Below are positions 25,117-44,681 of a stretch of DNA of 64,000 bases, piece after piece. The position numbers and the translations under genes were made by a program. Source of the stretch: an uncultured Pelagibacteraceae bacterium (GTDB taxonomy: Bacteria; Pseudomonadota; Alphaproteobacteria; Pelagibacterales; Pelagibacteraceae); the NCBI GenBank assembly GCA_902611145.1, contig CACLYO010000001.1, positions 17,501-81,500 on the forward strand, written 5' to 3'. The notes beneath the pieces are model-generated. The model searched no databases. It saw nothing but the letters and a program-made list of their open reading frames with translations, and was not told the DNA's origin. Each line of letters begins with the position of its first letter. Position 1 is the first letter of the stretch.

Positions 25117-26020
25117 AATTAAAAATCTTTTTTGCATTTAAAAATAAGTATAAAGTAATAACTATTAAGTAATCTACAAAAGTATATATTAGGGCACCAA
25201 CCAAAGCTAGTTCTTTGGAGATATTGATGTAACCAAATAAAAAAACAGTACTTAGTTCTTTCATTCCAAATATAATAAATTGAAGTTGGCTTAGCAATTC
25301 CACTAATGGAACAAATATTAATAGTTGAATTAAGAAAGAATTTTTACTTAGAAATAAAAATATTAAAAAATATATAAATATATTCAAAACTTGAATGCAA
25401 AAGTTTATTAGAAATAATTTTAAAATATTCTTTTTTAAAACTAATGATATTGCATTAACAGTTTTTAGATTTTTACCTAAAGAAAATTTTTTTGAAAAAA
25501 AAATTATTAATTTATTTAAGTTAAAAAAAGCAAATGTTAATAGAATTAAAAGAATAATTAAAGCTATAATTAAATTGAAGTTGTCATAGTTTTTTAAATT
25601 CAAGTAAATCAATATTCCAAAAATTACAAAAATAATTTTAAAAAAAAGAGCTAAAAATTTGTCTAAAAAAATTAAAATTATACTTTTTTTATTTCCTAGC
25701 TCTCTTTTAATTTTAATAAACTTTGCTGCTTCAATTGCTAGAGTAGAGCTGAAAATTAAACTAAAAGAAAAACCTGTAACAATATTTTTAAAAAATTCTA
25801 TAAATTTTATCTTTGAAAAATTGCTAACAATTATAAACCACCTAATTGTCATTAATAAAGGTAGAATTAAAAAAAATAAATATATTATAAAAATTTCTTT
25901 TATATTAATTTTTTTAAAACTTAATATAAAGTTTTCTTGATTTATAAATTTAAAAAATAAGTAAACAACTAAAATAAAAGTTGTTATTTTAAAAAAGAGA
26001 AATAAACTATTTTTTTTCAT
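25109..26020 (-). CDS. Membrane protein of the lysylphosphatidylglycerol synthase TM/flippase-like family
   Basis: 303 residues, about eight hydrophobic helices from residue 8 to 297 and almost no soluble domain. The helix pattern and the helix-5/6 region with a FGMKELSTVFLFG stretch near 250-262 recall the UPF0104/LPG-synthase-TM family (AglD/HpnL-like), whose members move or help modify polyprenyl lipids and hopanoids. It overlaps the 3' end of the HemN-like gene by 8 bases (convergent) and is divergent from the Rieske protein. A role in moving a lipid-linked sugar is inference. Confidence 0.55.
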   Translation of the reverse strand: MKKNSLFLFFKITTFILVVYLFFKFINQENFILSFKKINIKEIFIIYLFFLILPLLMTIRWFIIVSNFSKIKFIEFFKNIVTGFSFSLIFSSTLAIEAAKFIKIKRELGNKKSIILIFLDKFLALFFKIIFVIFGILIYLNLKNYDNFNLIIALIILLILLTFAFFNLNKLIIFFSKKFSLGKNLKTVNAISLVLKKNILKLFLINFCIQVLNIFIYFLIFLFLSKNSFLIQLLIFVPLVELLSQLQFIIFGMKELSTVFLFGYINISKELALVGALIYTFVDYLIVITLYLFLNAKKIFNFK

Positions 26021-26025
26021 TTTTT

Positions 26026-26039
26026 TTGATTTAAATCAA
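26026..26039. promoter_or_regulatory. Perfect FNR/FixK-type palindrome
   Basis: TTGATTTAAATCAA, a 14-base perfect palindrome matching TTGAT-N4-ATCAA, the consensus of FNR/Anr/FixK regulators. It lies 6-19 bases upstream of the minus-strand start at 26020, where it would cover the ribosome-binding region, and about 100 bases upstream of the plus-strand gene at 26138. In DNA this AT-rich the match can be chance, and no regulator gene is in the window. Confidence 0.3.
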
Positions 26040-26086
26040 TTTACTTGTAATATTTTATTGAGTATTTTGCTGTCATATTTAGGTAT

Positions 26087-26116
26087 TTGTATTTTTTATA
26101 AAATAAACTATATAAG
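26087..26116 (+). promoter_or_regulatory. Candidate promoter of the Rieske gene
   Basis: TTGTAT (26087-26092) lies 16 bases before TATATA (26109-26114), or 18 before the overlapping TATAAG (26111-26116). The gene starts 22 bases further on. A plausible sigma-70 arrangement, but the A/T background makes -10-like hexamers frequent. Confidence 0.25.
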
Positions 26117-26137
26117 TTATCTTTAAAATATTAATAT

Positions 26138-27136
26138 ATGCAATCATTTACAACAGAACAGATTATTAACACAGGAAAACAATTAGGGTTTAAATATAAA
26201 TCATTTACTTTTTCAATAAAAGGAAGATATAAATCATCTGACGCGTTATTTAATCATAGAGATATTCCACATTTTAATCATCTTCATAAAAATTTAGCAG
26301 GAGGATATGGCAATGAAGGAGTATATTATGGTGATGTAGTCTCTTTTATAAGATATTTTAAATTTTTTTTAATTTCTTTTCCAATATTAACCTTAATGAA
26401 AGATGATGGAAAAAATAGAGTTTTAGAAACTTACAGTTTTTTTTGTTTTCAGTTTTTAAAATTGAACGAAGAAATAGATTTACCAGAAAGCGGATGTGAA
26501 TCTAAAATTACATACTATATTGGATGTAAGCACGAAATTTTACTAAATATTTTTCTACCTTTTTTTAAAAAAATGTTTAAAAAAAGTTTTAATGATTATA
26601 AAAATGATGATCATCCATTTTTGAATAGAAGAGCTGACTTGAGAGCTAAAGGTTTTAGTTTTAATAAAGATGATATTTCAAATTTTACTTATGAAGATTG
26701 CCTTAACATTAAATCTCAAAATTGTTTTTTTGATTATAAATCGATGTTAAGTGAAAAAATATCAGTTAATATAAATGACATTAAAGAGAATGAACTAAAA
26801 ATAGTTAATGATATAAATATTCTAAGCTTCCAATTTTATAGAGATAAAAATTTAATTAAAATATATCCTGTTGTATGCCCACATGAAGGCGGATATCTTG
26901 GGCTAAATAATGAGGTAGGGGTTAAATTTAATTTTGAGAATTTTAAAAATTCAGAATGTAAAGTAAGGTGTAATATTCATAATAGAAGATTTGATCCAAT
27001 AATAACTATAGATTTAAAAAATAGCAAAGATAGCTATAAGTCTAATGTATATGATTTTAAGATTAATGATGGGAATATTTTTATAAATCTTAGAAATGAC
27101 CTAAATAGTAGAAAAAATCTAGATTGGTCAAAATAA
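26138..27136 (+). CDS. Protein with C-terminal Rieske-type 2Fe-2S domain
   Basis: 332 residues, not recognised as a named family. A Rieske motif lies near the C-terminus: CPHEGG (about residues 248-253) and CNIH (about 280-283), i.e. Cys-x-His and Cys-x2-His cluster ligands separated by 28 residues. The preceding about 200 residues contain an HFNHLHKN region and a FFCFQFLKL-type strand and could be a ligand-binding or catalytic domain. This order is the reverse of ordinary Rieske oxygenases. The next gene is a 2OG-oxygenase-like protein 25 bases downstream, so an oxidative modification step is plausible. Function unknown. Confidence 0.55.
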   Translation: MQSFTTEQIINTGKQLGFKYKSFTFSIKGRYKSSDALFNHRDIPHFNHLHKNLAGGYGNEGVYYGDVVSFIRYFKFFLISFPILTLMKDDGKNRVLETYSFFCFQFLKLNEEIDLPESGCESKITYYIGCKHEILLNIFLPFFKKMFKKSFNDYKNDDHPFLNRRADLRAKGFSFNKDDISNFTYEDCLNIKSQNCFFDYKSMLSEKISVNINDIKENELKIVNDINILSFQFYRDKNLIKIYPVVCPHEGGYLGLNNEVGVKFNFENFKNSECKVRCNIHNRRFDPIITIDLKNSKDSYKSNVYDFKINDGNIFINLRNDLNSRKNLDWSK

Positions 27137-27161
27137 TATATTAGTATAAAAGCAAATTAAG

Positions 27162-28100
27162 ATGTCTTTAAAAGTTAGAAAATTTTATCTTAGAAAATTA
27201 AAAAAAAAATTTAAAGGTAAAAAGATTAATGATTTGATGTATGAAATTAAAATACCTGATGATCTTTATTATAATATTAAATCTTTAGCTATAAATTATA
27301 TTTCAAAATCATTTAATGATGGTGAAACTATAACAGATGAAAAAAAATTAATTAATAAATTAATTAAAAGAAGGGCTCAATTAAAGAATGTAACACCAAA
27401 TGGTATTGTTGTTCCTAAAAATGAAATCTCTCTAGAATTTAATAATTTCTTAAAAGGTTATGTTGAAATTATAAAATTTTTAAATTTTAGTGAATTAATT
27501 GACAAATTTCATTTTCCACCAAACCTTAGAATAAAATTTCCAAAAATTTCCAAATCTCATATGTCTAGAAAACATCCGACTGAGCTTATGCATTCAGATA
27601 CTTGGACTGGTGCTAATCCTAATTGGATTGCTGTCCATTTATTTTTATTAGGAGATATTTCTAAAAATAATATAAGATATGCTATGCCGCCTAAAAATTT
27701 TCAAGAAAAATGGTTGCAGCCATTAAAATATTCAGAAGATGGAAAGAAAATTTCAGAAAAGTTTGAAGTAATTAATTATACACCAAAAAAAGGACACATG
27801 ATTGTTGCGGATGCATCTATAATTCATCAGTCATTTAGAAAGAAAAATGCTGGAATGAGAATATCCCTAGACACAGGTTTTGATATGAAAATGAAAAAGC
27901 TTTTATCATTTAGAAAAACAAAAATTGAAAAATTCGATGTTAAAAAAATTAGAGATGAAGAAACAGTTACAAAAGAAGATTTTATTAATATTGGAAAAAA
28001 AACTTACTTTCATTTTTCAGATAGTTTTAATCAGAAAGTATTTCACAAAGGTGGCTTCAAACATCCAACTAACCCAAAATTAATTAGATTAAGCAAATAG
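27162..28100 (+). CDS. 2OG/Fe(II)-oxygenase-like protein, paralogue of the one at 37842
   Basis: 312 residues. It shares with the protein at 37842 an NVTPNG-VVPK block (here 76-86), HSD (His144, Asp146), and a distal IIHQSFRKKNAG-R-S-DT block (His222, Arg233). These fit the HxD...H facial triad and the 2-oxoglutarate-binding arginine of PhyH-like oxygenases. I do not recognise a characterised member. It lies between the Rieske gene and a GtrB-type glycosyltransferase (1-base gap), so the likely substrate is a sugar or polyprenyl-linked sugar. The start is the ATG at 27162. Confidence 0.55.
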   Translation: MSLKVRKFYLRKLKKKFKGKKINDLMYEIKIPDDLYYNIKSLAINYISKSFNDGETITDEKKLINKLIKRRAQLKNVTPNGIVVPKNEISLEFNNFLKGYVEIIKFLNFSELIDKFHFPPNLRIKFPKISKSHMSRKHPTELMHSDTWTGANPNWIAVHLFLLGDISKNNIRYAMPPKNFQEKWLQPLKYSEDGKKISEKFEVINYTPKKGHMIVADASIIHQSFRKKNAGMRISLDTGFDMKMKKLLSFRKTKIEKFDVKKIRDEETVTKEDFINIGKKTYFHFSDSFNQKVFHKGGFKHPTNPKLIRLSK

Positions 28101-28101
28101 A

Positions 28102-29067
28102 ATGAAAAAAAAATTATCAGTAATAGTCTCTTTTTATAATGAAGAAGAAAGTATTGATTCATTTGTAAATGAAACAGTTAAAGAATTAGAAAAAATAGAG
28201 GAACTTGAGTATGAAATTATTTTTGTAAATGATAATTCAAAAGATGGCTCTCTAGTTAAATTATTAAAACACAGAGAAAATAACAATAGAATAAAAATAA
28301 TAAATCTTTCAAGAAGGTTTGGTCCTATGGAGTCTATCATGGCAGGAATACAGATGTCATCTGGAGATGCTTTAGTTAACCTGGACATTGATTTACAGGA
28401 TCCACCATCTTTAATTTTAGAAATGGTTAAGTTTTGGAGAGAAGAAAATTATGATGTTGTATTTACTACTAGAACAAGCAGAGAAGGTGAACCATTCATA
28501 AAAAAGATAATATCATCAGTCGGATATAAAATTTTAAAACGTTTTACAAACATTCCCATGGAAAAAGATTCTGGAGACTTTAGATTAATTTCAAAAAGAG
28601 TGATTGAAGAATATAAAAAATTCGGTGAAGTTTATCCTTTTTTCAGATTTGTTGTTGATTGGATTGGGTTCAAAAGAAAACAAATTTTTTATGAAAGAAA
28701 ATCTAGAAGAAAAGGTAAGACAAAACACCCTTTTGGACTTGGAATATTTTTTAATTTTTTTGAAATATCCTTAACACCATTCACAGATGCTCCAATAAGA
28801 TTTGCATTAATATTTGGAATAATTTCATTTATAACAACATTAATTATAATGATGAGAACATTGTATTTATTTTTTGCAGGTGTACCTTTTGAAGAAATTA
28901 GTTCAACTTCAATTTTTGTAGCTATTTTATTTTTTGGAAGTATTCAAAGTTTAATTTTAGGCGTATTGTCTATATACATTGGTTCTATATTTAAAGAGTC
29001 AAAAAAAAGACCCTTATATATTATAGATAAAACATTTGGTTTTGAGGAATCGATAGAAAATAAATAA
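28102..29067 (+). CDS. Polyprenyl-phosphate glycosyltransferase (GtrB/DPMS type)
   Basis: 321 residues. GT-A domain with VSFYNEEESI, NDNSKDGS (43-50), the metal motif DID at 95-97 and QDPP at 99-102. Two transmembrane helices follow at about 233-258 and 268-295, the GtrB/ArnC arrangement. Such enzymes put a sugar on undecaprenyl phosphate at the cytosolic face, and the product is used on the outside by a GT-C enzyme. The membrane proteins at 22059, 55164 and 60107 are candidates for that second step. It is preceded by the oxygenase-like gene and followed by the heptose fusion gene on the same strand. Confidence 0.85.
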   Translation: MKKKLSVIVSFYNEEESIDSFVNETVKELEKIEELEYEIIFVNDNSKDGSLVKLLKHRENNNRIKIINLSRRFGPMESIMAGIQMSSGDALVNLDIDLQDPPSLILEMVKFWREENYDVVFTTRTSREGEPFIKKIISSVGYKILKRFTNIPMEKDSGDFRLISKRVIEEYKKFGEVYPFFRFVVDWIGFKRKQIFYERKSRRKGKTKHPFGLGIFFNFFEISLTPFTDAPIRFALIFGIISFITTLIIMMRTLYLFFAGVPFEEISSTSIFVAILFFGSIQSLILGVLSIYIGSIFKESKKRPLYIIDKTFGFEESIENK

Positions 29068-29085: not shown

Positions 29086-30276
29086 TTGTTAATCAAAAAA
29101 AAAATAGATTTAGTTATTTTAGCGGGCGGTAAAGGTTCGAGAATAAAAAAATTTTTAAAAAATAATCCTAAACCAATGTTAAAATTTAATAAAAAATATT
29201 TTTTAAATTATATTTTAAGGAAAGCTTGCTCATATAATTTTAAAAAAATTTATATATTAACAGGTTTTAGAAGCCATGTGATTTTTAAAAAGTTCCACAA
29301 TAAAATTTTTAATTTTATAAAAATTATTTGCATCAAAGAAAAAAAAGAAATGGGGACTGGTGGTGCTTTATATAGCTTAAGAAAAAAAGTTGGAGATTTT
29401 ATTTTGATAAATGGCGATACTTTATTTGATATTGATTATAACGAATTAATTAAATCCACGAAAAATGATAAAATTGGAAGTATTGCATTAGTAAGAAATT
29501 TTAAACAAAAAAGCAATAAACTAGAAACTTTATCAATAAAAAAGGGTTTGGTAAAATATGAGAATAAAGGTCATTTTATGAATGGCGGTGTTTATTTTTT
29601 TAAAAGAAAATTTCTTAATTCAATTGAAAATAAAAAAATTTCTCTTGAGAGCGATATACTGCCAAAGACAATAAATCAAAAAAAAATTAATGGAAAAATA
29701 TTTAACAATTTTTTTATTGATATTGGATCTAAAGAAACTTTAAAAATTGCATCAAAAGAAATTAAAAAAAACTTTTCTAAACCAGCTGTATTTTTAGATA
29801 GGGATGGAGTAATTAATTATGATTACGGATATGTTCATGAAATTAATAAATTTAAACTTAAAAAGGGTGTATTGGATGGCCTGAGATATCTTACACAAAA
29901 AAACTACTATATTTTTATTGTTACAAATCAGGCAGGAATTGGAAAGGAAATTTTTACATTAAAAAAGTTTAACGATTTACATTTATATCTTAAAAATTTT
30001 TTTATTAAAAATGGAATATATATTTCCGATGTTCAATTTTCCCCTTTTCATATCAAAGCAAAAAAGAAAAAATATAAAAAAAAAAGTGGTTTTAGAAAAC
30101 CTGGTAATCTGATGATCAAAAATATTATTCAAAATTGGGATATAAACTTAAACAAAAGTTTCATGATTGGTGATAAAAAAAATGATCAATTAGCAGCTAA
30201 AAAAAGCAACTTAAGATTTTATTTTGCAGAAGATAATTTTTTTAAGCAAATAAAAAAAATATCTAATAATTATTAA
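29086..30276 (+). CDS. Fused heptose-1-phosphate guanylyltransferase and heptose bisphosphate phosphatase
   Basis: 396 residues. Domain 1 (about 1-228) is a sugar-1-phosphate nucleotidyltransferase with LAGGKGSRI at 12-20, KPM-K after it, EMGTGGAL near 88-95 and NGDTLFD near 109-115, matching HddC. Domain 2 (about 232-396) is a HAD phosphatase of GmhB type with FLDRDGVIN (Asp238, Asp240), TNQAGIG and a final GDKKND. Together they catalyse two consecutive steps to GDP-D-glycero-D-manno-heptose, usually done by separate proteins. The start is TTG at 29086; no ATG precedes the glycine motif. With gmhA and the kinase at 32388 the GDP-heptose route is complete. Confidence 0.85.
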   Translation: MLIKKKIDLVILAGGKGSRIKKFLKNNPKPMLKFNKKYFLNYILRKACSYNFKKIYILTGFRSHVIFKKFHNKIFNFIKIICIKEKKEMGTGGALYSLRKKVGDFILINGDTLFDIDYNELIKSTKNDKIGSIALVRNFKQKSNKLETLSIKKGLVKYENKGHFMNGGVYFFKRKFLNSIENKKISLESDILPKTINQKKINGKIFNNFFIDIGSKETLKIASKEIKKNFSKPAVFLDRDGVINYDYGYVHEINKFKLKKGVLDGLRYLTQKNYYIFIVTNQAGIGKEIFTLKKFNDLHLYLKNFFIKNGIYISDVQFSPFHIKAKKKKYKKKSGFRKPGNLMIKNIIQNWDINLNKSFMIGDKKNDQLAAKKSNLRFYFAEDNFFKQIKKISNNY

Positions 30277-31198
30277 CGATTTTTTCAGAGCTATTTTTGA
30301 AATAAAGTAACAACTCTTTGATACCTTTTTCCAAACTAATTTTAGCTTTGAATCCTTTTTTTTCTATTTTTTTATTACTTACAAAATAATCTCTCTTATC
30401 TGGATCTTTTTTATTTTTTATAATTTTAATTTTCGTGATTGAATGTTGTTTTTTAATTTTTTTTGCTAACATCAATTTAGTTATATTTGCACTAGATAGA
30501 CCCAAATTATAAACATTTGATTTAATTTTATTAAAGTTGTCGATAGAAAAAATAATTCCTTTTACTACATCTTTAACATGTATAAAATTTCTTCTGAACT
30601 TAGGTTCAAATATATCTAATTTTTTCTTTGTAACAGCTCTATAAACAAAGTTATTTACTAGAAGATCACTTCTCATTCTGTAGCTGCAACCAAATACTGT
30701 AGCTAATCTGAAGGAAACAGAATTCTTTAATTTTTTAATCTCTTCTTCTGCATCACATTTTGTCCTACCATATAATGAAATTGGTTTAAGCGGACTGTTT
30801 TCATCACAATACTTATTTTTTTCTCCAACACCATAACCTGAGTTCGAAGTCATATAAATAATTTTATTTTTTTTTTTAATTAAAGATTTAATTAACTTTA
30901 CAGCAAAGTAATTAGTAGTAATTGCATCTTTTTTATATTTTTCGCACAAGGGTGCGCCCACTAATCCAGCTAAAGGAATAATAAATTCATTTTTACTTAT
31001 TAGTTTTTTCATAATTTTCCTATTTCTTGCATCTCCACGAATAAGATTAAAGTTATCAAAAAAATATAAATGACTTAATGAGTCTGTATTATATTTCATA
31101 ATATCTAGAACAGTTACTATATGTCCAAGTTTAACTAATTCAGTGCAAAGTGTAGAGCCTATATATCCAGCCCCTCCAGTGATCAAAATTTTTTTCAT
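30263..31198 (-). CDS. NAD-dependent epimerase/dehydratase (extended SDR)
   Basis: 311 residues. GGAGYIG at 8-14, TSNSGYG near 117-123 and YGRTK near 143-147 as the catalytic Tyr/Lys. A NFIHVKDVV motif typical of sugar epimerases is near 204-212. The middle contains AGLVGAPLCEKY instead of the usual HLAA stretch. It is last in the tight minus-strand block behind a ColD-like dehydratase and a heptose kinase, so it probably reduces or epimerises a keto-heptose or deoxyhexose nucleotide. It converges with the heptose fusion gene (14-base overlap). Substrate unknown. Confidence 0.7.
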   Translation of the reverse strand: MKKILITGGAGYIGSTLCTELVKLGHIVTVLDIMKYNTDSLSHLYFFDNFNLIRGDARNRKIMKKLISKNEFIIPLAGLVGAPLCEKYKKDAITTNYFAVKLIKSLIKKKNKIIYMTSNSGYGVGEKNKYCDENSPLKPISLYGRTKCDAEEEIKKLKNSVSFRLATVFGCSYRMRSDLLVNNFVYRAVTKKKLDIFEPKFRRNFIHVKDVVKGIIFSIDNFNKIKSNVYNLGLSSANITKLMLAKKIKKQHSITKIKIIKNKKDPDKRDYFVSNKKIEKKGFKAKISLEKGIKELLLYFKNSSEKIVNNY

Positions 31199-31200
31199 AT

Positions 31201-32391
31201 TTAGATATTAATATTATTAAGTATTTTAGTTAATTTTTTTATCTTTTCTTTTTTTAAAGATGGATAATTTCCAATGTAATATCCAAAAAAATGTACTTTA
31301 TCTACATTTTTATATTTTTTTAAATTTATTTTTTTAAAATAATTTTTTAAATATGGCTGTCTTAACTGATTTCCTCCACCAGCATTTCCTCTTCTAAACT
31401 CAATTTTTTTTTGTGTTAAGATTTTTTCAAAATAATTTCTTTTTTTTAAATTATTTGTTTTAAGAATAACTGGAAATGCATAATTGCTACTACCTTTAAG
31501 GTCAAAGTTTTTATAGTATTTTGAACTATCTAAATTTTTTAGAAAAAGATTAAAATTTTTTGTTCTCTTTAAATTATTTGAGTTTAAGGATTTTAATTGG
31601 TTTATTCCTAATGTTGCTCCAATTTCAGTATTTCTAAAATTTAAAGTTGGATATAAGAATATGAATTTTGGAGAAAGTTTATTATATTTATTAATTAATT
31701 TTTTTTCGTATATTTTATTATTACTTTCTCTTAACATTCCATGAGATCGGAGAATCCTGCATATTTCATAAACTTTTTTATTATCAGTAGATATCATTCC
31801 ACCTTCAATAGTGGTCATATGATGAGCGTAGTAAAAAGAGAAGTTTGAAATTAACCCAAAATTTCCAAGTTTTTTATTTTTAAATTTAGCTCCATGACTT
31901 TCACAAACATCTTCTATTAAAAGAATTCTTTTTCTTTTAAGAGTTTTAATTAACTTTTCACTTAAACCATTAAAACCTTGAGCATGAGTTATGAAAACTG
32001 CTAAAGTTTTTTTGTTAATTTTTTTTAAAACATCACTATTGTTCATTGAAAGGTTATTTAAATTTATATCTACGAATATGGGCTTAAAACCATTCATTAT
32101 TACTGAGTTAATGTCTGAAACCCATGTAAGGGCGGGAACTATTATTTCATTCTTATATTTATTCTTATTAATTACTTTTAATGCAGCTATAGATACAAAA
32201 TTTGCAGATGATCCGGAATTTACAAAAATGGAATACTTTGATCCTAACCATTTAGACCACTTTTTTTCAAACTCCTCTACTTTGCTAGATTGAGTTAAAA
32301 CAATATTTTTTTTATTTAATAATTTTTTAACCTCTGATAAATCAGATTTAGTAAAATTATTATGCATTAAAGGATGACTTAATTTCTTCAT
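31201..32391 (-). CDS. ColD/RfbH-like PLP-dependent sugar 3-dehydratase
   Basis: 396 residues, DegT/DnrJ/EryC1 aspartate-aminotransferase fold. The normal Schiff-base lysine of the FSFxPxK motif is His190 (FSFYYAHHMTTIEGG). That substitution marks ColD (GDP-4-keto-6-deoxymannose 3-dehydratase) and RfbH, which remove the 3-hydroxyl instead of transaminating. SGSSAN at 59-64 and EDVCESHGA at 160-168 complete the active site, and AHH-TT-EGGM closely recalls ColD. It overlaps the heptose kinase gene by 4 bases, so the substrate may be a GDP-keto-deoxyheptose or GDP-hexose. Chemistry is supported by the motif; the substrate is inferred. Confidence 0.75.
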   Translation of the reverse strand: MKKLSHPLMHNNFTKSDLSEVKKLLNKKNIVLTQSSKVEEFEKKWSKWLGSKYSIFVNSGSSANFVSIAALKVINKNKYKNEIIVPALTWVSDINSVIMNGFKPIFVDINLNNLSMNNSDVLKKINKKTLAVFITHAQGFNGLSEKLIKTLKRKRILLIEDVCESHGAKFKNKKLGNFGLISNFSFYYAHHMTTIEGGMISTDNKKVYEICRILRSHGMLRESNNKIYEKKLINKYNKLSPKFIFLYPTLNFRNTEIGATLGINQLKSLNSNNLKRTKNFNLFLKNLDSSKYYKNFDLKGSSNYAFPVILKTNNLKKRNYFEKILTQKKIEFRRGNAGGGNQLRQPYLKNYFKKINLKKYKNVDKVHFFGYYIGNYPSLKKEKIKKLTKILNNINI

Positions 32392-33371
32392 AATTTTTTA
32401 TTTAGAATAATACTTGATCCTTCATCTTTAAAATTGAAAGGAACTTTCGTTATTTTTTTTATTTTTTTTAAAAATTTTTTTTGTTTGTGCTCTGGCATGT
32501 ATAATAACATAAAACCACCACCACCTGCTCCTAATAATTTTCCACCTAAAGCTCCATTTTGAATTGAAAAATTATATAAATCATCAATTTTTTTATTACT
32601 TATTACTTTGCTTAAACTCTTTTTAAGTTTCCATCCTTCATTTAGTAATTTTCCAAAATTATCAAAATCATTATTTTTAAGTAAATTCACAGCTTCATCC
32701 ACTTGAAAACTTATCTCATTCATCTCATTTTTTTTTTTAATTTTTAAATCTGTTACGTATTGCCCAGCAATTTCATTGGCTGTTCTATATATTCCAGTAA
32801 ATAATAATAATAAATTTTTGTTTAATTTCTTTATTTTATTATCAATTTTAAAGTTCTTAATTTTGAATGCACCATTTTTTTCAATAAGAATTTTATTAAA
32901 TCCACCAAAAGACGCTGATATTTGGTCTTGCATTCCTACAACTTCATTTAAGATTTTTTGTTCAAAAAAAATGCTTTTTTTTGCAAGATTTAGTTTGGAG
33001 ATTTTAATTTTTTTCTGGCATAATAATGTATTCATAAGCCCAACAACAAAACTTGAACTGGATCCCATACCTGATCTTGCTGGCAAATCTCCTTGATAGT
33101 GTATTTCTAATCCATTTTGTATTTTAAAATTTTTTAACATTTCCCTTACAACATTATGATTAATATCTGTTGTCTTATTTACATTTTCAACTTTTGACCA
33201 AACAATTCTGTGCTTATAATTAAAGTATGGTGGTAGTTTTCTTGCAGATAAATAAATATATTTATCAATTGTTGCAGACAAGACTTTCCCTTTATTAGTT
33301 TTGAACCACGAAGGGTAGTCAGTGCCTCCACCAAAAAAAGATATTCTATAGGGTGTTTTAGATAAAATCAT
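32388..33371 (-). CDS. hddA: D-glycero-D-manno-heptose 7-phosphate kinase (GHMP family)
   Basis: 327 residues. N-terminal SKTPYRISFFGGGTDYP (4-20) is the HddA-type substrate signature. The ATP loop is LPARSGMGSSSS (96-107) and the C-terminal GHMP motif is KLLGAGGGGFM (near 294-304). It phosphorylates heptose 7-phosphate at C1; the GmhB domain of the 29086 protein would then remove the 7-phosphate and its HddC domain add GMP. It shares 4-base overlaps with both neighbours in the block. L-fucose kinase-type GHMP enzymes are similar, but gmhA and the fusion gene nearby favour heptose. Confidence 0.82.
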   Translation of the reverse strand: MILSKTPYRISFFGGGTDYPSWFKTNKGKVLSATIDKYIYLSARKLPPYFNYKHRIVWSKVENVNKTTDINHNVVREMLKNFKIQNGLEIHYQGDLPARSGMGSSSSFVVGLMNTLLCQKKIKISKLNLAKKSIFFEQKILNEVVGMQDQISASFGGFNKILIEKNGAFKIKNFKIDNKIKKLNKNLLLLFTGIYRTANEIAGQYVTDLKIKKKNEMNEISFQVDEAVNLLKNNDFDNFGKLLNEGWKLKKSLSKVISNKKIDDLYNFSIQNGALGGKLLGAGGGGFMLLYMPEHKQKKFLKKIKKITKVPFNFKDEGSSIILNKKL

Positions 33372-34282
33372 TTATTTAATTTCATTTTTTTTAGAATTGT
33401 TTTAATTATTTCGTCTGACTGTGGTGGAAGATTATCAGATTTTTTTGAAAAACCGGCTGATCTATCTTTTAAACCCATCACATCAATTTTTTTTTTTGAA
33501 ATTTTCATAAGCTTATATGCCATGTCTGAAGCAACACCTCTTACATAGTCATCATCTAAAATAATACCTCCAAATTTAGATTTTTTTAAAGATTCAATCC
33601 ATTTTTTTTTAATTTTAAATGGTTTTATCCAAAGAATATTCGCAATTCCAATTTTTATACCTTTTTGTAAAAGTTTTTCTCTTACCTTTTTTGCTTCAAA
33701 TCTAGTTATTGAAATACAAAAAATAATTAAATCTAAATCTTTACTCAGATAATCTTTTAGTTCTAATTTATTATTATAACTACCTCTGTGTTCCGAGATA
33801 TAATAAACATCATTATCTGCCATAAAATTTTTATATGACAAAACATATTCTTTAGGCGTCATTGGAGATATAATTTTTATTCCTGGCATTCTATAATATA
33901 TGGAATGATGAGATGAACCTGCAACTGGGCCTATGGAACCTTCCATGGCAATTCCTCTTATAAAAATAGGGCAGGGTACATTCCAAATTTCTTTTGATTT
34001 ACATGCATAATTTAAAATTATAGGAGCATTAAACCAATTAAAACCTTGATATCTTATTACATATATGGGTCGTCTCTTTGACAAACCTGCTCCGACAACT
34101 ATACCTCCATTTGCTACATCTGCCATACTAAGTTCTGTTATTCCATCTTTTTCTCTTAACTCAGGTATAGTACCGCCTACCCATCCTACAGCTGATAAAC
34201 ATTGACCAAGTATTAAACTTTTTTTATTTTTTAGATGTTTGTAAGTAATTTCTTTTATCGTATCTCTAACTGTCTTAGCCAT
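33368..34282 (-). CDS. Thiamine-diphosphate enzyme, E1-beta/transketolase C-terminal half
   Basis: 304 residues. The pyrimidine-binding domain carries the ThDP-activating Glu50 (ELSMADVANGG) and the stretch GSIGPVAGSSHHSIYY near 125-140, where catalytic histidines lie in E1-beta/transketolase relatives. A C-terminal transketolase domain follows from about 175. It pairs with the E1-alpha-like gene at 34255 (28-base overlap) as a two-subunit enzyme. No lipoyl or E2/E3 genes are nearby, so it is not an ordinary 2-oxoacid dehydrogenase. The place in a deoxysugar/heptose block suggests carboligation, adding a two-carbon unit to a keto sugar, or a transketolase reaction. That is inference. Confidence 0.7.
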   Translation of the reverse strand: MAKTVRDTIKEITYKHLKNKKSLILGQCLSAVGWVGGTIPELREKDGITELSMADVANGGIVVGAGLSKRRPIYVIRYQGFNWFNAPIILNYACKSKEIWNVPCPIFIRGIAMEGSIGPVAGSSHHSIYYRMPGIKIISPMTPKEYVLSYKNFMADNDVYYISEHRGSYNNKLELKDYLSKDLDLIIFCISITRFEAKKVREKLLQKGIKIGIANILWIKPFKIKKKWIESLKKSKFGGIILDDDYVRGVASDMAYKLMKISKKKIDVMGLKDRSAGFSKKSDNLPPQSDEIIKTILKKMKLNK

Positions 34283-35094
34283 AATTTTTTGATTTGTTTT
34301 TTAATGTCTTCATGAATTTTAAATGCTTTTATTCCTAATTTCTTTTTTTCATAATCATATCTATCAAATGTATCATTGCTATCTTTACCAGCACCAGCAT
34401 GCCAATAAATTCTGTTAGTATTTATATTTATTAGGACTGGTTTTTTAAAAAAATTTTTTGATATTTTTTTTATGCTTAATGGATCATCGTTTATTGTATA
34501 AGCATTCATTTTAAATGATTTAGCAACATCTGCCATTTCCCAGTTTCTCCTAACCTTTTTTTCAGTTAAAATTGATAAGTTATTATCTTCGATTACAAAT
34601 AATATTGGCAGTTTTTTTTGAGAAGCCCAACCCATAGCTCCCAAAACGTAATCTTCTTCTGCAGCAGCATCACCTAAAAAAACTATGGTAGGTTTTTTTG
34701 TAGCGAAACAGGCCCCTACACCTATCGGTCCATTTGATCCCATTAATCCATCATGACCAAACATATTTATTTCCTTTGAATGTATTGATGCTGAACCTCC
34801 CATTCCTTTAGTACAACCACTCTTTAATCCCAATAATTCGTCTATTAATTTTTTTATATTTCCACCGAATGATAAATAAATCGAGTGACATCTGTGCTGA
34901 CCAAAAAGTAAAGGCTTTAATCGTTTTTTTTTACTCAATACGGATATAGTTGAAGATATAAACTCCTGTCCAGCCGAAACATAAACAGGAATTTTTATAG
35001 TTTTGTTGTTTAAGTACTTTATAACTTCTTCTTCAAAATTCCTACATAATGAAGCTTTTTTAAATACATCTAGTCTAAAATTACTATCTTTCAT
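34255..35094 (-). CDS. Thiamine-diphosphate enzyme, E1-alpha-like subunit
   Basis: 279 residues, shorter than a typical E1-alpha (about 330-370). KGMGGSASIH at 96-105, the ThDP diphosphate motif GDAAAEEDY at 141-149 with NN at 171-172, and GHDG near 113 fit the E1-alpha family. Its partner is the E1-beta-like gene downstream, and it overlaps the cupin gene upstream by 4 bases. Comparable split E1-type enzymes are known to attach two-carbon branches to sugars (AviB1/AviB2 in avilamycin eurekanate). The absence of E2/E3 supports a non-oxidative acyl transfer here. Confidence 0.7.
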   Translation of the reverse strand: MKDSNFRLDVFKKASLCRNFEEEVIKYLNNKTIKIPVYVSAGQEFISSTISVLSKKKRLKPLLFGQHRCHSIYLSFGGNIKKLIDELLGLKSGCTKGMGGSASIHSKEINMFGHDGLMGSNGPIGVGACFATKKPTIVFLGDAAAEEDYVLGAMGWASQKKLPILFVIEDNNLSILTEKKVRRNWEMADVAKSFKMNAYTINDDPLSIKKISKNFFKKPVLININTNRIYWHAGAGKDSNDTFDRYDYEKKKLGIKAFKIHEDIKKQIKKLWLRQLEIR

Positions 35095-35780
35095 TTTTTT
35101 TTAACTTTTAGAACTATTAATTTTTTATTTATTTTAAATACTTTTGCTAGTTTTTTTATTGTTCCTACCTTAATAATATCTCCTTGCGACAAGATATTTT
35201 TTTTTTTATTATTTATTACATTTCCACCCAAAATACCAAAAATAGTATTATTTTTTTCTTTAACTAATTTTTTAAAATTTTTATGTTTTTCTAAATAAAC
35301 ATTTGACGTATCAAAAGAGTATTTTTGAGTTTTTTTTGAAGTTTTATTTAATTGTATTAAATCATTCTTAAATAATGTTTTTTTATTTCCTTTTTCATAA
35401 GAAATATTTTCTCTTCCATATTTGTCATAATATCGTACCAAATCATTTTTTGCTACTGGAGTTTCAAATTCAAGTGCAGTAAGAGGTTTTTTTGATATAC
35501 ATTTAATTGAATGAAATAATCCAGTTCTTATCATTAATTTAGACGGAGATTTATAAATTTTAGAATCTTGCTTCCATAAACCTAATTGTATTGAAGCCTT
35601 TCCAGATAAAAGAATAAAACCAGTTTTTTTTTTAGGATGACAATGTAGAGAGGTGCTCTTATTAGGGTTTATATTTAAAATTGTTACAGAAAGTTTTTTT
35701 CCTGATCTATATATAACATATTCATAACCCCAAGGTTTAAAAACAACTCTATTATCATAATAGTCTTTATTTGTTTTCAT
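35091..35780 (-). CDS. Cupin protein, mannose-6-phosphate isomerase type II-like
   Basis: 229 residues. The first cupin (about 10-115) begins with KPWGYEYVIY as in phosphomannose-isomerase-type cupins and carries metal ligands His46 and His48 (SLHCHP), with a later His in LFHSIKC. A second, weaker half begins near 150. The glutamate usually found six residues after the HxH is not obvious. Overlaps of 4 bases with both neighbours place it in the operon. It could isomerise a phosphosugar or supply the substrate for the adjacent ThDP enzyme; the reaction is unknown. Confidence 0.55.
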   Translation of the reverse strand: MKTNKDYYDNRVVFKPWGYEYVIYRSGKKLSVTILNINPNKSTSLHCHPKKKTGFILLSGKASIQLGLWKQDSKIYKSPSKLMIRTGLFHSIKCISKKPLTALEFETPVAKNDLVRYYDKYGRENISYEKGNKKTLFKNDLIQLNKTSKKTQKYSFDTSNVYLEKHKNFKKLVKEKNNTIFGILGGNVINNKKKNILSQGDIIKVGTIKKLAKVFKINKKLIVLKVKKK

Positions 35781-36295
35781 TTAAAGAAGCTTAAAGTTGC
35801 TTCCATCCAAGGTGCCATATCTTTATAGTGAGCTGTAGTAACTATTTTACTATCAACTACAGCAGGTTTATCAGTATATATTGCTCCTGCATTATTTATG
35901 TCATCTTCCATACTATAGTATCCAGAAATTTTTTTACCTTTAACAATTTTTGCAGATATTAATAATTGAGCTGCACTACAAATACACGCTATTACCTTGT
36001 CAAGCTTGTGAAACTCAGAAATAAAATTGATTAATTTTTTTTCCTGTCGTATTTTTTCCATTGATTTTACACCACCAGGTAAAATTAACAAATCATAGTC
36101 TTTTGGATTAATTTCATTAATGTCTTTTATTTTATGATTTTTATTTGGTGGCAAGGTAGTACCTAAAATACCTAAAACTGGTTTACCTCCAATTATACAT
36201 ACATCCAAATCAAAACCTGCCTCCATTACTCTATAGTACGGGTATATAAATTCATGGTCTTGTGCTAACGCACCACTTATGATTACAGCTTTCAT
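35777..36295 (-). CDS. DJ-1/PfpI family protein
   Basis: 172 residues. The nucleophile elbow is ACICSAAQ with Cys106, LILPGG at 70-75 is the oxyanion region and Glu15 in QDHEF is the usual partner of the cysteine. DJ-1/PfpI proteins include glyoxalase III and aldehyde-sugar-adduct hydrolases. Inside a sugar-biosynthesis operon it could handle a reactive keto or aldehyde sugar intermediate, or it could be a dedicated hydratase-type step. No closer assignment is possible. It overlaps the cupin gene by 4 bases and follows the radical SAM gene after 3 bases. Confidence 0.65.
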   Translation of the reverse strand: MKAVIISGALAQDHEFIYPYYRVMEAGFDLDVCIIGGKPVLGILGTTLPPNKNHKIKDINEINPKDYDLLILPGGVKSMEKIRQEKKLINFISEFHKLDKVIACICSAAQLLISAKIVKGKKISGYYSMEDDINNAGAIYTDKPAVVDSKIVTTAHYKDMAPWMEATLSFFK

Positions 36296-36298
36296 AAA

Positions 36299-37813
36299 TT
36301 AATAATTTACCTCAGTATTATGATGTTTACGATTAATTTTATGATTTGTCATTTTTTTTATGTGATTTACTGTTTTTTCACCATAAGTTTTATTTATCAT
36401 TGATAAATAATCTGCATTTTCAAAATAAATATTAAAAGCTTTGTCTCTAAAATCTAATACTTTAGAACCTTTCAGGGTTTCTGTAGGAAGAGGTAATGTT
36501 TCGTAGGCATGTTGTGAATACCCAATCCAGCCTGGTCCATTATTATCGTCTGGTAAAATCCATTTTTTATTTTTTGCATAAGAATATAGTTGTGAACCTG
36601 GGTATGCCATTGCAGAATAAAAATTAGACCATTCACTGTTAATTCTCATTGAAAGGTCTAGAGTTTCTTTCATTGTATCTTCAGTGTCATCTGGCAGTCC
36701 AAATATATAGTTAGCACCAACATAAAACCCCATACTTCTAACTTTTTTTACAATTCCTTCGATATCAAAATTATCAAATCTTCCTTTTACCACTCCATCT
36801 CTAACATGCTCCGAACTTGATTCTATTCCCAGAGCAAGCCATTTAAACCCTGCCTTAAACATTTTTTTTAACATTTCATTATCATTCAGTGTATCTATTC
36901 TTGCGTAAGCCCAGAAGTTCAATTTTTTTCCTAAACCTTCTTTTTCAATTTCATCACAAATACCTGTTACTTGTTTTGGGTTTAGCACAAACATTTCATC
37001 AGGAATTTTAATATTATAGATTCCATGATTATCTACTAAATATTTTATTTCTTTAATAATATGTTTTGGCGACCAAAATCTTATGGTATTTCTTTCAAAG
37101 GGAGCATTAATACAACAAAAAGTACATTTGAAAGGACAGCCTAAACTAGTTTGTAATGAAGCATATTTATTCCTACTATCTAAATCATGAAATGTATGCC
37201 AATTATGGGCCTTATACTTTGAAAGATCTAATAATTCCCAAGCTTGTCCGGGTAGATCTTTATCTAAGTTTTCAAACATTGATGCAGATTTGTTGCTTTT
37301 TATTTCATTACTTTCTTTATACCAAAGACCTGGTATTTTTTCATAATTCATAGATCCTTTTTTTATAACTTTTAAAAGTTGCTCTATTGTAATTGGACCT
37401 TCGCCTTGACAAACAAAATTATAAGGTTCTTCTTCTAGTGTTCTTTTAGGTAGGGCAGAGGAATGAGTTCCAACAACAATAGATTTAATTTCTCCATTAG
37501 AAAGTTCATTCATTATTTTGGCGGTTTTTCTTCCCCCAGGCATACATTGAGTTGATGCAGAAGGTTGTTGACCATAAATCATATAAACTGCCAAAAGTGG
37601 ATTTTCTTTACAAATTTTTTCTGCAGTTTCTTTATGCGTTAATAGTTCTGCTTCCGCATCCAAAACTTTTACGCTATATCCCCTATTCAATAAATATTTT
37701 GCTATTAACAAAGACCAAACAGGTGGTTCTATAGCAGCATATTCCCCTGAAAGTTTTTGATAAACTTCAATTCTAGAAGGAGGAGTAATTAAAAGAACAT
37801 CTAATTTAGCCAT
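36299..37813 (-). CDS. Cobalamin-binding-type radical SAM enzyme
   Basis: 504 residues. The N-terminal Rossmann-like domain (about 1-150: LLITPP, PPVWSLLIAKYLLNRG, GTHSSALP, CQGEGPITIEQL) matches the B12-binding half of class B radical SAM enzymes, although the DxHxxG cobalamin motif is not evident. The radical SAM cluster is Cys226-x3-Cys230-x2-Cys233, with an adjacent Cys234. GIES and NYIFGLP motifs follow. Class B members C- or P-methylate unreactive carbons in sugars, phosphonates and antibiotics. Inside this block, C-methylation or another radical rearrangement of the heptose-derived sugar is the best guess. Confidence 0.75.
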   Translation of the reverse strand: MAKLDVLLITPPSRIEVYQKLSGEYAAIEPPVWSLLIAKYLLNRGYSVKVLDAEAELLTHKETAEKICKENPLLAVYMIYGQQPSASTQCMPGGRKTAKIMNELSNGEIKSIVVGTHSSALPKRTLEEEPYNFVCQGEGPITIEQLLKVIKKGSMNYEKIPGLWYKESNEIKSNKSASMFENLDKDLPGQAWELLDLSKYKAHNWHTFHDLDSRNKYASLQTSLGCPFKCTFCCINAPFERNTIRFWSPKHIIKEIKYLVDNHGIYNIKIPDEMFVLNPKQVTGICDEIEKEGLGKKLNFWAYARIDTLNDNEMLKKMFKAGFKWLALGIESSSEHVRDGVVKGRFDNFDIEGIVKKVRSMGFYVGANYIFGLPDDTEDTMKETLDLSMRINSEWSNFYSAMAYPGSQLYSYAKNKKWILPDDNNGPGWIGYSQHAYETLPLPTETLKGSKVLDFRDKAFNIYFENADYLSMINKTYGEKTVNHIKKMTNHKINRKHHNTEVNY

Positions 37814-37841
37814 ATATGAAATATAACTATTATTTATTTTA

Positions 37842-38744
37842 TTAAAACTTAATAATTTTTAAAACTTTTGAAGTATAATGAGAAAAAGTACTATTTTTTT
37901 TTGCAAATTTTGAAGATTCATATTGTCCTGAGTCTACAAATTCGTTGAGACCAATATTAGGAATTTTTTTTGTATATTCTTTAATTCTGTCTTTATGTGG
38001 ATGATAGTTTCCAACAAATATTGTTGTATCTATTGATACTCTGGTACCGCAATTTTTTTTCCTATTTGTATGATGAATTGCAGCATAATCAGAAATATTA
38101 ACAAAACTTTTTTTCGGGTAAAAATTTTTAATTGGCTGATAGCTATCCATTACCCATTGCATTTTTTTATAGGTTGATGAAATGTTCATAAATTTACTAT
38201 CAAATTTATTTTTTTTTGGCTCGTAAAATTTTAGATTATTATTTTTAAAGTCTCCAAAGAAAGGAATAAAACAATTCATACCCCATGGCCCTTCAACCCA
38301 AGCATCGGAATGTGGTAGAGATGTAGATAAACCTCTTTTAAAATTATCTTTCAACTCAGATCCATATTTAATCCTTATGTTAGGAGTAATTCTAAAGAGA
38401 CTAAGCAATTTAGGATTATGCCTAGTAATTTTTTTTATTAGTTCACACCAATTTCTTAAAACTAAATTATATTCTAGATGATATTCTCGTTTTGGAACAA
38501 TTGCACCGTTTGGAGTTACATTAGTTCTATTATTTCTAGCTTTATCAATATTTTGAATAAATAAATTATCTTTGTTTTCAAATTTAATTTTAAGTGCTTT
38601 AGAAATATACAATTTTAAATTAAATTTAAATTCCTCAAAAAAATCTTTTTCTATCTTGTAAGAGGTAATTAATGGATGAAGTTTTTTAAGCTTCCATTTT
38701 TTAGTTATAAAATTTATTCTATCTGTTCTTATTTTTAAGCTCAT
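37842..38744 (-). CDS. 2OG/Fe(II)-oxygenase-like protein, paralogue of the one at 27162
   Basis: 300 residues. It shares with the 27162 protein NVTPNG-IVPKRE (75-87), PHSDAW (His145, Asp147) and AIHHTNRKKNCG-RVSIDT (His224/His225, Arg234). This arrangement fits an HxD...H iron site and a 2OG-binding arginine. It is first in the nine-gene minus-strand block, 28 bases ahead of the radical SAM gene, so it probably hydroxylates or oxidises the same sugar. Nothing similar with a known reaction is recognised. Confidence 0.55.
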   Translation of the reverse strand: MSLKIRTDRINFITKKWKLKKLHPLITSYKIEKDFFEEFKFNLKLYISKALKIKFENKDNLFIQNIDKARNNRTNVTPNGAIVPKREYHLEYNLVLRNWCELIKKITRHNPKLLSLFRITPNIRIKYGSELKDNFKRGLSTSLPHSDAWVEGPWGMNCFIPFFGDFKNNNLKFYEPKKNKFDSKFMNISSTYKKMQWVMDSYQPIKNFYPKKSFVNISDYAAIHHTNRKKNCGTRVSIDTTIFVGNYHPHKDRIKEYTKKIPNIGLNEFVDSGQYESSKFAKKNSTFSHYTSKVLKIIKF

Positions 38745-39333: not shown

Positions 39334-39439
39334 ACTTGTTGAATTTGAAAGAAATGTAAACTAATATTTATTTTATCATAAATTAAAAAAAGGAAATTTT
39401 AAAAAAAATCTTTTGGGAGATTTTATCCCATTTAAATAT

Positions 39440-43577: not shown

Positions 43578-44681
43578 TTATTTTAAAGAATAAAATTTTT
43601 TAATTTTATTTATTATTAAGTTTAATTCAGAATTTTTTAAATTGTATGAAGAAGGTAAGGATAAACCGGTATTGAAAATTTTATTTGAAACGGGAAATCT
43701 ATCTTTGATATTTTTAATAATTTTGTATTTACGATAACATGGTTGTAAATTTAAAGGTAAAAAAATATCTCTAGTTTGAATTTTGTTTTTTTCTAAAAAT
43801 TTTTTAAGTTTTAGCTTATCTTTTGTAAATATATTGGAAAACCAATGAACAGGTTTATTTTTTGCTAAATTTTGCATAAATGAAATAGATTTTATAGTAG
43901 AAAGTCCTTTTTTATATGTCTCAAAAATTTCTTTTTTTCTTTTTAAAATTTTTTTTAATTTTTTAACTTGAATATTACCAATTGCAGCTTGCATTTCAGT
44001 GAACATAAAATTATAACCAATCTCTTTATGTACAAAGATACCTTTTTTTAACCTGCCATGATTTTTGATTTCGTATATTTTATTTCTTAATTTTGAGCTG
44101 TTAGTCAAAATTAGACCACCTTCACCAGTAGTTATTATTTTATTCCCATAAAATGAAAATCCTCCCAGAATTCCTATGGTTCCTAAAAATTTTTTTTTGT
44201 AAGTAGAATAAATCGCCTGCGCAGCATCCTCAATAAGATATAATTTTTTTTTTTTACATATTTTATTTAATTTATCCATATCACAACAATGGCCATATAA
44301 ATGTACAGGGATTATTGCTTTAGTTTTTTTAGAAATTTTATTATTTATTTTATTAAGGTCTAAACATAAATTATTTTCATCTACATCACATAAAACAGGA
44401 GTTGCGCCAGCCAAAATTATAGCGTTTGTAGTTGCTACAAAAGTTAAATTAGGAACTATTACTTCATCGTTTTTCCCAATATTTAAGGCTTTTAAACAAG
44501 CAAAAATTCCAGATGTCCAATTTGATATTGAGATTGAGTGTTTTACTTTAAAATTTTTAATAAAATATTTTTCAAATTTTAAAGTTTCATCCCCTTCAGT
44601 GAGATAAGTTTTTTGAACTATTTTTTTTATATAATTTGCTTCAGCTTCGTTAACCCAAGGTTTAATCTGATTAATTTTCAT
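43578..44681 (-). CDS. DegT/DnrJ/EryC1 sugar aminotransferase
   Basis: 367 residues. The PLP Schiff-base lysine is Lys181 (GFSFYGNKIITTGEGG), with IEDAAQAIYS near 150-159 and VPVHLYGHCCDMD-type strand ends, as in PseC/PerA/ArnB-type enzymes. It transaminates a 4-keto (or 3-keto) nucleotide sugar. The perosamine-synthase-like N-terminus (IKPWVNEAEANYI...TYLTEGDETLKFE) suggests a GDP- or UDP-4-keto-6-deoxyhexose. It lies 2 bases downstream of the ColD-like gene on the same strand, so the pair could make a 3-deoxy-4-amino or similar sugar. Confidence 0.82.
   Translation of the reverse strand: MKINQIKPWVNEAEANYIKKIVQKTYLTEGDETLKFEKYFIKNFKVKHSISISNWTSGIFACLKALNIGKNDEVIVPNLTFVATTNAIILAGATPVLCDVDENNLCLDLNKINNKISKKTKAIIPVHLYGHCCDMDKLNKICKKKKLYLIEDAAQAIYSTYKKKFLGTIGILGGFSFYGNKIITTGEGGLILTNSSKLRNKIYEIKNHGRLKKGIFVHKEIGYNFMFTEMQAAIGNIQVKKLKKILKRKKEIFETYKKGLSTIKSISFMQNLAKNKPVHWFSNIFTKDKLKLKKFLEKNKIQTRDIFLPLNLQPCYRKYKIIKNIKDRFPVSNKIFNTGLSLPSSYNLKNSELNLIINKIKKFYSLK

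Follow-up and report, generated by a model that had tools for sequence, protein, structure and literature searches.

A candidate pathway to a C4-branched 3-deoxy-heptose in Pelagibacteraceae, with a conserved sugar core and exchanged thiamine diphosphate enzymes

In Campylobacter jejuni, Cj1427 oxidises C4 of GDP-D-glycero-D-manno-heptose using 2-oxoglutarate (PMC10680097, PMC7949155). Cj1427 of serotype HS:2, mixed in vitro with the C3-dehydratase of HS:5, yields GDP-3-deoxy-4-keto-heptose, with a reported m/z of 616.08, and the reduced products were termed novel (PMC10680097). In HS:5 the C3-dehydratase acts after a 4,6-dehydratase, which gives a 3,6-dideoxy sugar, and C4 reduction comes last (PMC10440746). 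In the text of PMC10680097, "thiamin" and "branched" each had 0 matches. Here we analyse a block of nine minus-strand genes (30263-38744) in a 64,000-nucleotide stretch from an uncultured Pelagibacteraceae bacterium of the SAR11 group (GenBank assembly GCA_902611145.1, contig CACLYO010000001.1, positions 17,501 to 81,500 of the forward strand), which is called the window and supplies the coordinates below. The block has in common with the C. jejuni pathway a predicted GDP-heptose start, Cj1427-like C4 oxidation, a pyridoxal phosphate (PLP)-type C3-dehydratase and activation enzymes of the same kind. The C4-oxidase and C3-dehydratase were paired in vitro across C. jejuni serotypes, whereas their predicted counterparts in this SAR11 block are encoded by adjacent genes.

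Thiamine diphosphate (ThDP) enzymes of the decarboxylase, two-subunit and transketolase classes make tertiary alcohols from ketones, including branched sugars, and a branching function proposed for split transketolases is still pending (PMC12247030). According to the same source, YerE and ErwE of yersiniose and erwiniose formation transfer an acyl unit onto a 3-deoxy 4-keto nucleotide sugar of Gram-negative surface glycans, and ErwE favours hydroxylated 2-oxo acids. The predicted chemistry of the block is alike, but yersiniose and erwiniose use a CDP-hexose and a single-chain decarboxylase-type enzyme, and the block has a predicted GDP-heptose and a two-subunit enzyme of the E1 type. Split E1-alpha/E1-beta genes are described in the deoxysugar clusters of aldgamycin, kosinostatin, kibdelomycin, paulomycin and avilamycin, where two-carbon addition to a keto sugar is proposed or shown (PMC12247030). 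Unlike these antibiotic clusters, the loci of the pair described here (E1ab) are surface-glycan islands of Gram-negative and candidate-phylum genomes. The antibiotic sugars concerned are those of actinomycetes. A literature search covering titles and the beginnings of abstracts, with most subscription papers outside its reach, found no description of a ThDP-branched heptose or of such a block. The block is a variant that unites two known kinds of system, one modifying GDP-heptose and the other branching sugars with ThDP enzymes.

The nine-gene block and its predicted sugar core

The host genome (1.13 Mb in 29 contigs) is about 84% complete, and the block lies in a surface-glycan island with glycosyltransferases, sialic-acid-type genes, phosphonate genes and several DegT enzymes. 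An earlier note, made from the sequence alone, had described nine closely packed genes and proposed that they build a deoxy, possibly branched, heptose-type sugar. A check of open reading frames (ORFs) returned the same nine, filling 30263-38744 with the coordinates, strands and junctions given there. Pfam and NCBIfam searches agreed with its family labels, except that the oxygenase label is supported by predicted fold and motif. From low to high coordinate, the junctions are a gap of 2 bases, overlaps of 4, 4, 28, 4 and 4 bases, and gaps of 3 and 28 bases; the 28-base overlap joins the two E1-like genes. The block and the two plus-strand genes assigned to the same pathway are as follows (aa, amino acids).

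30263-31198, minus: short-chain dehydrogenase/reductase (SDR), 311 aa, predicted GDP-D-glycero-D-manno-heptose C4-dehydrogenase (Cj1427-like; phmmer to PDB 6vo6)
31201-32391, minus: ColD-type 3-dehydratase, 396 aa, pyridoxamine phosphate-dependent (DegT/RfbH-like, nearest to ColD)
32388-33371, minus: GHMP kinase, 327 aa, HddA-like heptose-7-phosphate kinase (NCBIfam HddA)
33368-34282, minus: E1-beta-like subunit, 304 aa, Asp55 at the catalytic Glu position (Transket_pyr and a sub-cut-off Transketolase_C match)
34255-35094, minus: E1-alpha-like subunit, 279 aa, ThDP/Mg motif GDA..DNN intact (PF00676, E1_dh, 74.7 bits)
35091-35780, minus: cupin protein, 229 aa, one Pfam cupin domain (MannoseP_isomer, PF01050, 38 bits)
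35777-36295, minus: DJ-1/PfpI-like protein, 172 aa (PF01965, 131 bits)
36299-37813, minus: B12-binding radical S-adenosylmethionine (SAM) protein, 504 aa, BchE/HpnJ-like (PF04055, 57 bits; PF02310, 37.5 bits; CxxxCxxC)
37842-38744, minus: 2-oxoglutarate (2OG)-Fe(II) oxygenase-like protein, 300 aa (AlphaFold2 fold and HxD..H..R motif)
29086-30276, plus: HddC-like guanylyltransferase fused to a GmhB-like phosphatase, convergent with the SDR gene
21494-22069, plus: GmhA-like sedoheptulose-7-phosphate isomerase (TIGR00441, 156 bits against a cut-off of 209; SIS_2)

We consider it somewhat probable that these genes make a C4-branched 3-deoxy-heptose for the cell surface, and that across Pelagibacteraceae the core of this pathway is constant while its ThDP enzyme is exchanged among several types. 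By homology, GmhA, the HddA-like kinase, and the GmhB and HddC domains would convert sedoheptulose-7-phosphate to GDP-D-glycero-D-manno-heptose, the Cj1427-like SDR would oxidise its C4, and the ColD-like enzyme would remove the 3-hydroxyl to give GDP-3-deoxy-4-keto-heptose. Gene context suggests that E1ab would then decarboxylate a 2-oxo acid and add the acyl carbanion to the C4 ketone; the product would be a tertiary alcohol bearing an acyl branch. This addition would take the place of the C4 reduction that closes the Campylobacter pathways. Branching at C4 is proposed because a predicted C4-oxidase and a predicted 3-dehydratase are present and family searches of all nine genes found no evident C4-reductase among them, and by analogy with yersiniose. 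The B12 radical SAM protein and the 2OG oxygenase may tailor the sugar. Least certain is that the DJ-1 protein and cupin would serve the ThDP step, in donor supply or branch processing. We infer the substrates, the order of steps, the branch and its size, the donor and the tailoring. If the proposal is true, SAR11 has a predicted class of C4-branched 3-deoxy-heptose surface sugars, and the branching step is directly testable because chemists have already made the predicted substrate. SAR11 bacteria are very abundant in the ocean, and their surface glycans are thought to be important for phage contact.

Co-occurrence of the nine families was surveyed in other genomes. Another Pelagibacteraceae genome (locus L084) has all nine within about 12 kb, where three genes of the opposite strand and one RmlC-like gene lie among them, and the betaproteobacterial metagenome-assembled genome (MAG) TMED100 (L113) has all nine in about 10 kb, in a different order and at 30-56% identity. 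Because all nine recur in both, the grouping exceeds chance. Among 397 Pelagibacteraceae genomes (two counts of 397, taken as the same draw), E1ab at 60% identity or more was found in 18, ColD at E 1e-100 in 36 and both in 14, in 12 of these at one locus. The E1ab records from all taxa (77) represent 59 distinct loci and 18 second copies of the same places, and the 59 still include near-copies (e.g., L113/L138 and L134/L135). GHMP kinase is present in 45 of the 59, SDR in 39 and ColD-type dehydratase in 36. The full triad occurs in 31, while none of its members occurs at equal thresholds in 20 control loci around a NeuB gene of the same family. Carriers of E1ab beyond SAR11 include SAR116, marine betaproteobacteria, Colwellia, Nitrospira, Omnitrophota, Chloroflexi, Verrucomicrobiales, a deltaproteobacterial MAG, Planctomycetota and three candidate phyla. 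A plasmid search with E1-beta gave nine distant records, and 28 stretches of viral contigs had no relatives. Co-occurrence is thus strong; neither a lack of it nor a firm placement of the ThDP pair with housekeeping dehydrogenases, the two results named in the earlier note as refuting, was obtained.

The SDR matched PDB 6vo6 with 298.8 bits over 301 aligned residues and no gaps (phmmer), against 68 bits for the runner-up PDB chain. We take 6vo6 to be Cj1427, the GDP-heptose C4-dehydrogenase of C. jejuni, although the entry code was not confirmed in the literature. Family searches class this SDR as epimerase-type, and it carries the motif TSNSGYG...YGRTK. It is likely a C4-oxidase acting on GDP-heptose, so no 4,6-dehydratase would be needed. 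The DegT protein scored 170 bits against ColD (PDB 2gms) and 119 bits against the RfbH-type E1 (3bcx), and in an alignment of orthologues that includes the window copy, His (SFYYAHHMTTIEGG) takes the place of the PLP Lys in 12 of 12; we take this replacement to be a hallmark of ColD. The best NCBIfam match of the kinase is HddA (NF049969) at 149 bits, under the cut-off of 600, and it is called HddA-like only; its top two PDB matches are "putative sugar kinase" chains, and the next two are named heptose kinases (4n3o, 3k85). The fusion protein matches GmhB_yaeD (120 bits) and HddC (86 bits), neither reaching its cut-off, and the same fusion adjoins SDR/ColD in many Pelagibacteraceae loci. Together with GmhA, these proteins predict GDP-3-deoxy-4-keto-heptose.

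The earlier note had left heptose or hexose open; the heptose-type kinase, GmhA, HddC-GmhB and the Cj1427-like SDR favour heptose. Its GDP activation and 3-deoxy 4-keto intermediate are supported by the SDR, the ColD-like enzyme and HddC-GmhB homology. Its view of the ThDP pair as non-housekeeping also stood, and the sugar is now more sharply defined. The note, correct for the most part in outline, had overlooked the likely C4-oxidase role of the SDR, HddC-GmhB, GmhA and the Asp of E1-beta. The branch is less certain than it had suggested, with two carbons, pyruvate as donor, C-methylation by the radical SAM protein and the action of all nine genes on a single sugar as conjectures. A 4,6-dehydratase was considered as the 4-keto source in the window and set aside as unneeded; the SDR has TSNSGYG, not a dehydratase-type motif. 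Gmd-like genes with CSTSEVYG-type motifs lie near the core in other loci, and an ordinary Gmd is encoded at 59056 in the window; therefore, 6-deoxy versions may exist.

The two-subunit ThDP enzyme and its replacements

ThDP enzymes carry a nearly universal catalytic Glu, which in those of the E1 type lies in the beta subunit. In E1ab this position is occupied by Asp in 58 of 58 beta sequences (the window and 57 of 59 loci; two loci gave no usable beta frame). All the paralogous beta subunits (28 of 28) show Glu there, and the pyruvate dehydrogenase (PDH) E1-beta chains in PDB align likewise. The predicted E1-beta model is poor (pLDDT 58, with residues 20-77 below 50), so the assignment of Asp55 rests on sequence alignments. 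In the alpha subunit, G141, D142, A143, N171 and N172 are invariant in 14 of 14 aligned sequences. The alpha subunits form one clade (support 100/99) that spans many phyla, apart from 27 alphaproteobacterial paralogues, in a midpoint-rooted tree in which a 28th row labelled as paralogue is a copy of the E1ab family. Split E1 genes without E2 were found beside deoxy-keto-sugar genes, the arrangement by which two-subunit ThDP sugar-branching enzymes are recognised. The Asp-bearing family may be new in itself and, if so, would be of interest to enzymologists.

Exchange of the ThDP enzyme was examined in 18 Pelagibacteraceae loci that have the ColD core without E1ab; two loci with a 52% ColD were counted apart. 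A ThDP gene of another type is present in 16 of the 18, against 4 of the 20 NeuB controls. These 16 are nine mini pairs, six split transketolases and one acetolactate-synthase-like protein (L157; 615 aa, 389 bits to acetolactate synthase, cut-off 538). No ThDP gene was found in L152 (6.6 kb, at a contig end) or L153. In two of the four controls the ThDP gene matched a phosphonopyruvate decarboxylase query, at 281 and 63 bits; the other two hold split transketolases. A mini pair, or an acetolactate-synthase-like ThDP protein of 566 aa, is also present in some E1ab loci.

The mini pair consists of an E1_dh protein of about 200 aa and a Transket_pyr protein of about 178 aa, with no C-terminal domain; its place in the alpha tree carries a long-branch warning. 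We know of no described family of this kind. It lies beside the ColD core at L060:8063-9205, where it keeps the Glu, and also in L142, L145, L146, L149, L150, L151, L154, L156 and L158.

On the ColD tree with nine labels, ThDP type needs 17 changes, with a minimum of 8 and an average of 25.3 in shuffles. Related loci thus tend to share a ThDP type, yet it has been exchanged repeatedly. A core that stays constant across Pelagibacteraceae while the ThDP type is exchanged would be an unusual form of pathway modularity. The differing enzymes at the same place in relatives point to an undescribed family of surface sugars. A wider claim is advanced more tentatively, as a possibility just short of probable: that SAR11 and its relatives have a modular C4-branched 3-deoxy-heptose system in which one constant GDP-3-deoxy-4-keto-heptose core is branched by interchangeable ThDP enzymes, namely the new mini pair and the three kinds known or proposed to act on ketones (decarboxylase, split transketolase and two-subunit E1), and that the window enzyme represents a new Asp-for-Glu ThDP family.

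Alternative explanations and points of doubt

It is very improbable that E1ab is an ordinary E1 of a pyruvate or branched-chain 2-oxoacid dehydrogenase (BCKDH) that lies in a glycan island by chance. Its best PDB matches are PDH E1 chains, it has the domain make-up and ThDP motif of PDH/BCKDH E1, and in a genome 84% complete an unseen complex is conceivable. However, the cell has its own PDH E1, a separate 1029-aa AceE-type protein (1421 bits, above the cut-off) beside its E2 on contig C4. A phmmer search with that E2 found no lipoyl E2 near E1ab in any of the 59 distinct loci, whose flanks vary with contig ends; the search recovered the positive control (L162), and the paralogue loci (0 of 36) do not have the length needed for a fair comparison. 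E1ab further differs from PDH/BCKDH E1 in its shorter alpha chain, its Asp and its separate clade. The housekeeping PDH E1 was rejected as a candidate on the separate AceE-type E1, the lack of E2 in 59 of 59 loci and the clade. The only other E1_dh matches in the genome are two frames of 644 and 668 aa, both of which also match Transketolase_C, and no 2-oxoglutarate dehydrogenase E1 was seen in the roughly 84% of the genome that is present. In L162, residues 17-106 of the AceE-type protein (2235-5324) match the lipoyl-bearing part of PDH E2 models, and the adjoining E2 is short (304 aa).

Two other explanations keep the pair in glycan synthesis. Two cassettes could stand side by side, GHMP-ColD-SDR-HddC/GmhB making an unbranched 3-deoxy-heptose whose C4 is reduced elsewhere, and E1ab with DJ-1 and cupin serving another surface component. 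We regard this as unlikely, though to be taken seriously, since DJ-1 (29 of 59 loci) and cupin (32 of 59) track E1ab and are missing from all 18 ColD loci without it, E1ab occurs without ColD in some loci, and GDP-fucose-synthase-like and RmlD-like SDRs lie elsewhere in the island. Against it stand the presence of several ThDP types beside the ColD core (16 of 18 loci without E1ab, 4 of 20 controls), the tight gene overlaps that cross the proposed boundary and the lack of an evident C4-reductase among the nine genes. E1ab could also act before the nucleotide sugar, building an unusual ketose phosphate in the manner of DXS or transketolase, which the isomerase, kinase, phosphatase and guanylyltransferase would then activate. 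Transketolase yields sedoheptulose-7-phosphate in ordinary metabolism, and split transketolases adjoin the core in 6 of the 18 ColD loci without E1ab. This explanation is improbable, as the kinase, GmhA and C4-oxidase resemble enzymes of ordinary heptose and the core is retained when the ThDP type changes.

Several observations weigh against the proposed C4-branched 3-deoxy-heptose. The HddA, HddC, GmhB and GmhA matches are all under their NCBIfam cut-offs, and the likeness of E1ab to the two-subunit branching enzymes of antibiotics is one of gene context and description. Asp for Glu could mean altered or weak activity. The full GHMP-ColD-SDR triad is absent from the DNA examined in 28 of 59 E1ab loci, some of which are contig ends. 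E1ab occurs with GHMP and SDR and no ColD in L063, L066 and L067, again in the DNA examined, and without GHMP in L065 and three SAR116-like loci (L109, L110 and L112). The E1ab acceptor thus need not be a 3-deoxy sugar; it may differ between loci, or the cassettes can perhaps be separated. Conversely, L153 holds ColD and GHMP without any ThDP gene. Split transketolases also occur in two of the controls and in L161, one of the two 52% ColD loci. The proteins of L157 and the 566-aa acetolactate-synthase-like type might supply a donor or be unrelated, and dropping L157 leaves 15 of 18 ColD loci with ThDP. Because the genomes that hold the loci are related, the Fisher p values, uncorrected for kinship, overstate independence.

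A C4-reductase could also lie outside the nine genes. In the island, an RmlD-like SDR is encoded at 39413, and a GDP-fucose-synthase-like frame runs from 63229 to the window end. An SDR of the GDP-fucose-synthase-like kind could reduce either C4 or the branch, and 8 of 59 E1ab loci have a relative of the frame at 40% or more. In L132 the SDR between the DJ-1 and cupin genes matches GDP-fucose synthase with 425 bits, under the cut-off of 500. A GDP-fucose-synthase-like SDR has the same position in L127, L134 and L135, and might epimerise or reduce the keto sugar or the branch.

Partner genes, donor clues and the surrounding island

The radical SAM, 2OG oxygenase, DJ-1 and cupin genes are variable partners, and those for DJ-1 and the cupin go with the E1 pair. 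Relatives of the cupin are present in 32 of 59 E1ab loci and those of DJ-1 in 29, against none of the 18 ColD loci without the E1 pair. Radical SAM relatives occur in 29 of 59 and in 12 of the 18, respectively. The DJ-1/PfpI protein keeps the elbow Cys (CICSAAQ), and by eye Gln apparently replaces what we take to be the acidic partner of PfpI; it is perhaps not a standard deglycase. The 300-aa protein at 37842-38744 had no Pfam or NCBIfam match. Its AlphaFold2 model (pLDDT 90) gave 58 Foldseek matches at E of 0.001 or less, of which the best 50 are 2OG-Fe(II) enzymes by title or by known function; with a best E of 2.1e-5 and TM mostly about 0.3-0.4, this is a moderate fold match. H145-x-D147, H224 and R235 are shared by all aligned sequences (8 of 8). 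Because its relatives are rare (only 5 of 59 E1ab loci), this oxygenase is a local addition.

Outside SAR11, genes near E1ab include an MR/MLE enolase-superfamily gene (6 loci), an HMGL/homocitrate-synthase-like gene (5 loci) and a class-I aminotransferase gene (3 loci at the survey threshold, 7 by clustering), which suggests custom 2-oxo-acid donors. None of these was seen in the window block, and no donor was adopted for this reason. The enolase-superfamily gene lies beside E1ab, DJ-1 and cupin in L127, L131, L132, L133, L134 and L135, with a HAD-type gene in several. The homocitrate-synthase-like gene (HMGL and HCS_D2 in the two tested) is directly upstream of E1ab in L126, L130, L137, L140 and L141, preceded by a class-I aminotransferase-like gene in four of five; L130 also carries PdxA and inositol-phosphatase genes.

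The block may extend through 23692-29067 (mixed strands), a region with homologues in the SAR116 E1ab locus L116.

23692-25116: HemN-like radical SAM protein
25109-26020, minus: flippase-like protein
26138-27136, plus: Rieske-like protein
27162-28100: second 2OG oxygenase-like protein
28102-29067: glycosyltransferase (GT2)

Homologues of the HemN-like, Rieske-like, second oxygenase and GT2 proteins are present in L116, and at equal thresholds none of the four was found in any of the 20 NeuB control loci. The Rieske-like protein has CPH..CxxH motifs by eye and no Pfam or NCBIfam match; its 54% homologue in L116 is flanked by homologues of the same neighbours.

Elsewhere in the island, 16306-19791 (minus) encodes a phosphoenolpyruvate mutase-cytidylyltransferase fusion (364 bits) and a phosphonopyruvate decarboxylase (362 bits), both above their cut-offs, and an iron-type alcohol dehydrogenase, so a phosphonate-decorated glycan is probably another product of the island. 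A second DegT protein (44684-45904, minus) has RfbH as its best NCBIfam match (275 bits, cut-off 423), and His (SFYYSHQISSGEGG) replaces the PLP Lys. This protein is likely a second 3-dehydratase, and it adjoins an aminotransferase with Lys at 43578-44681.

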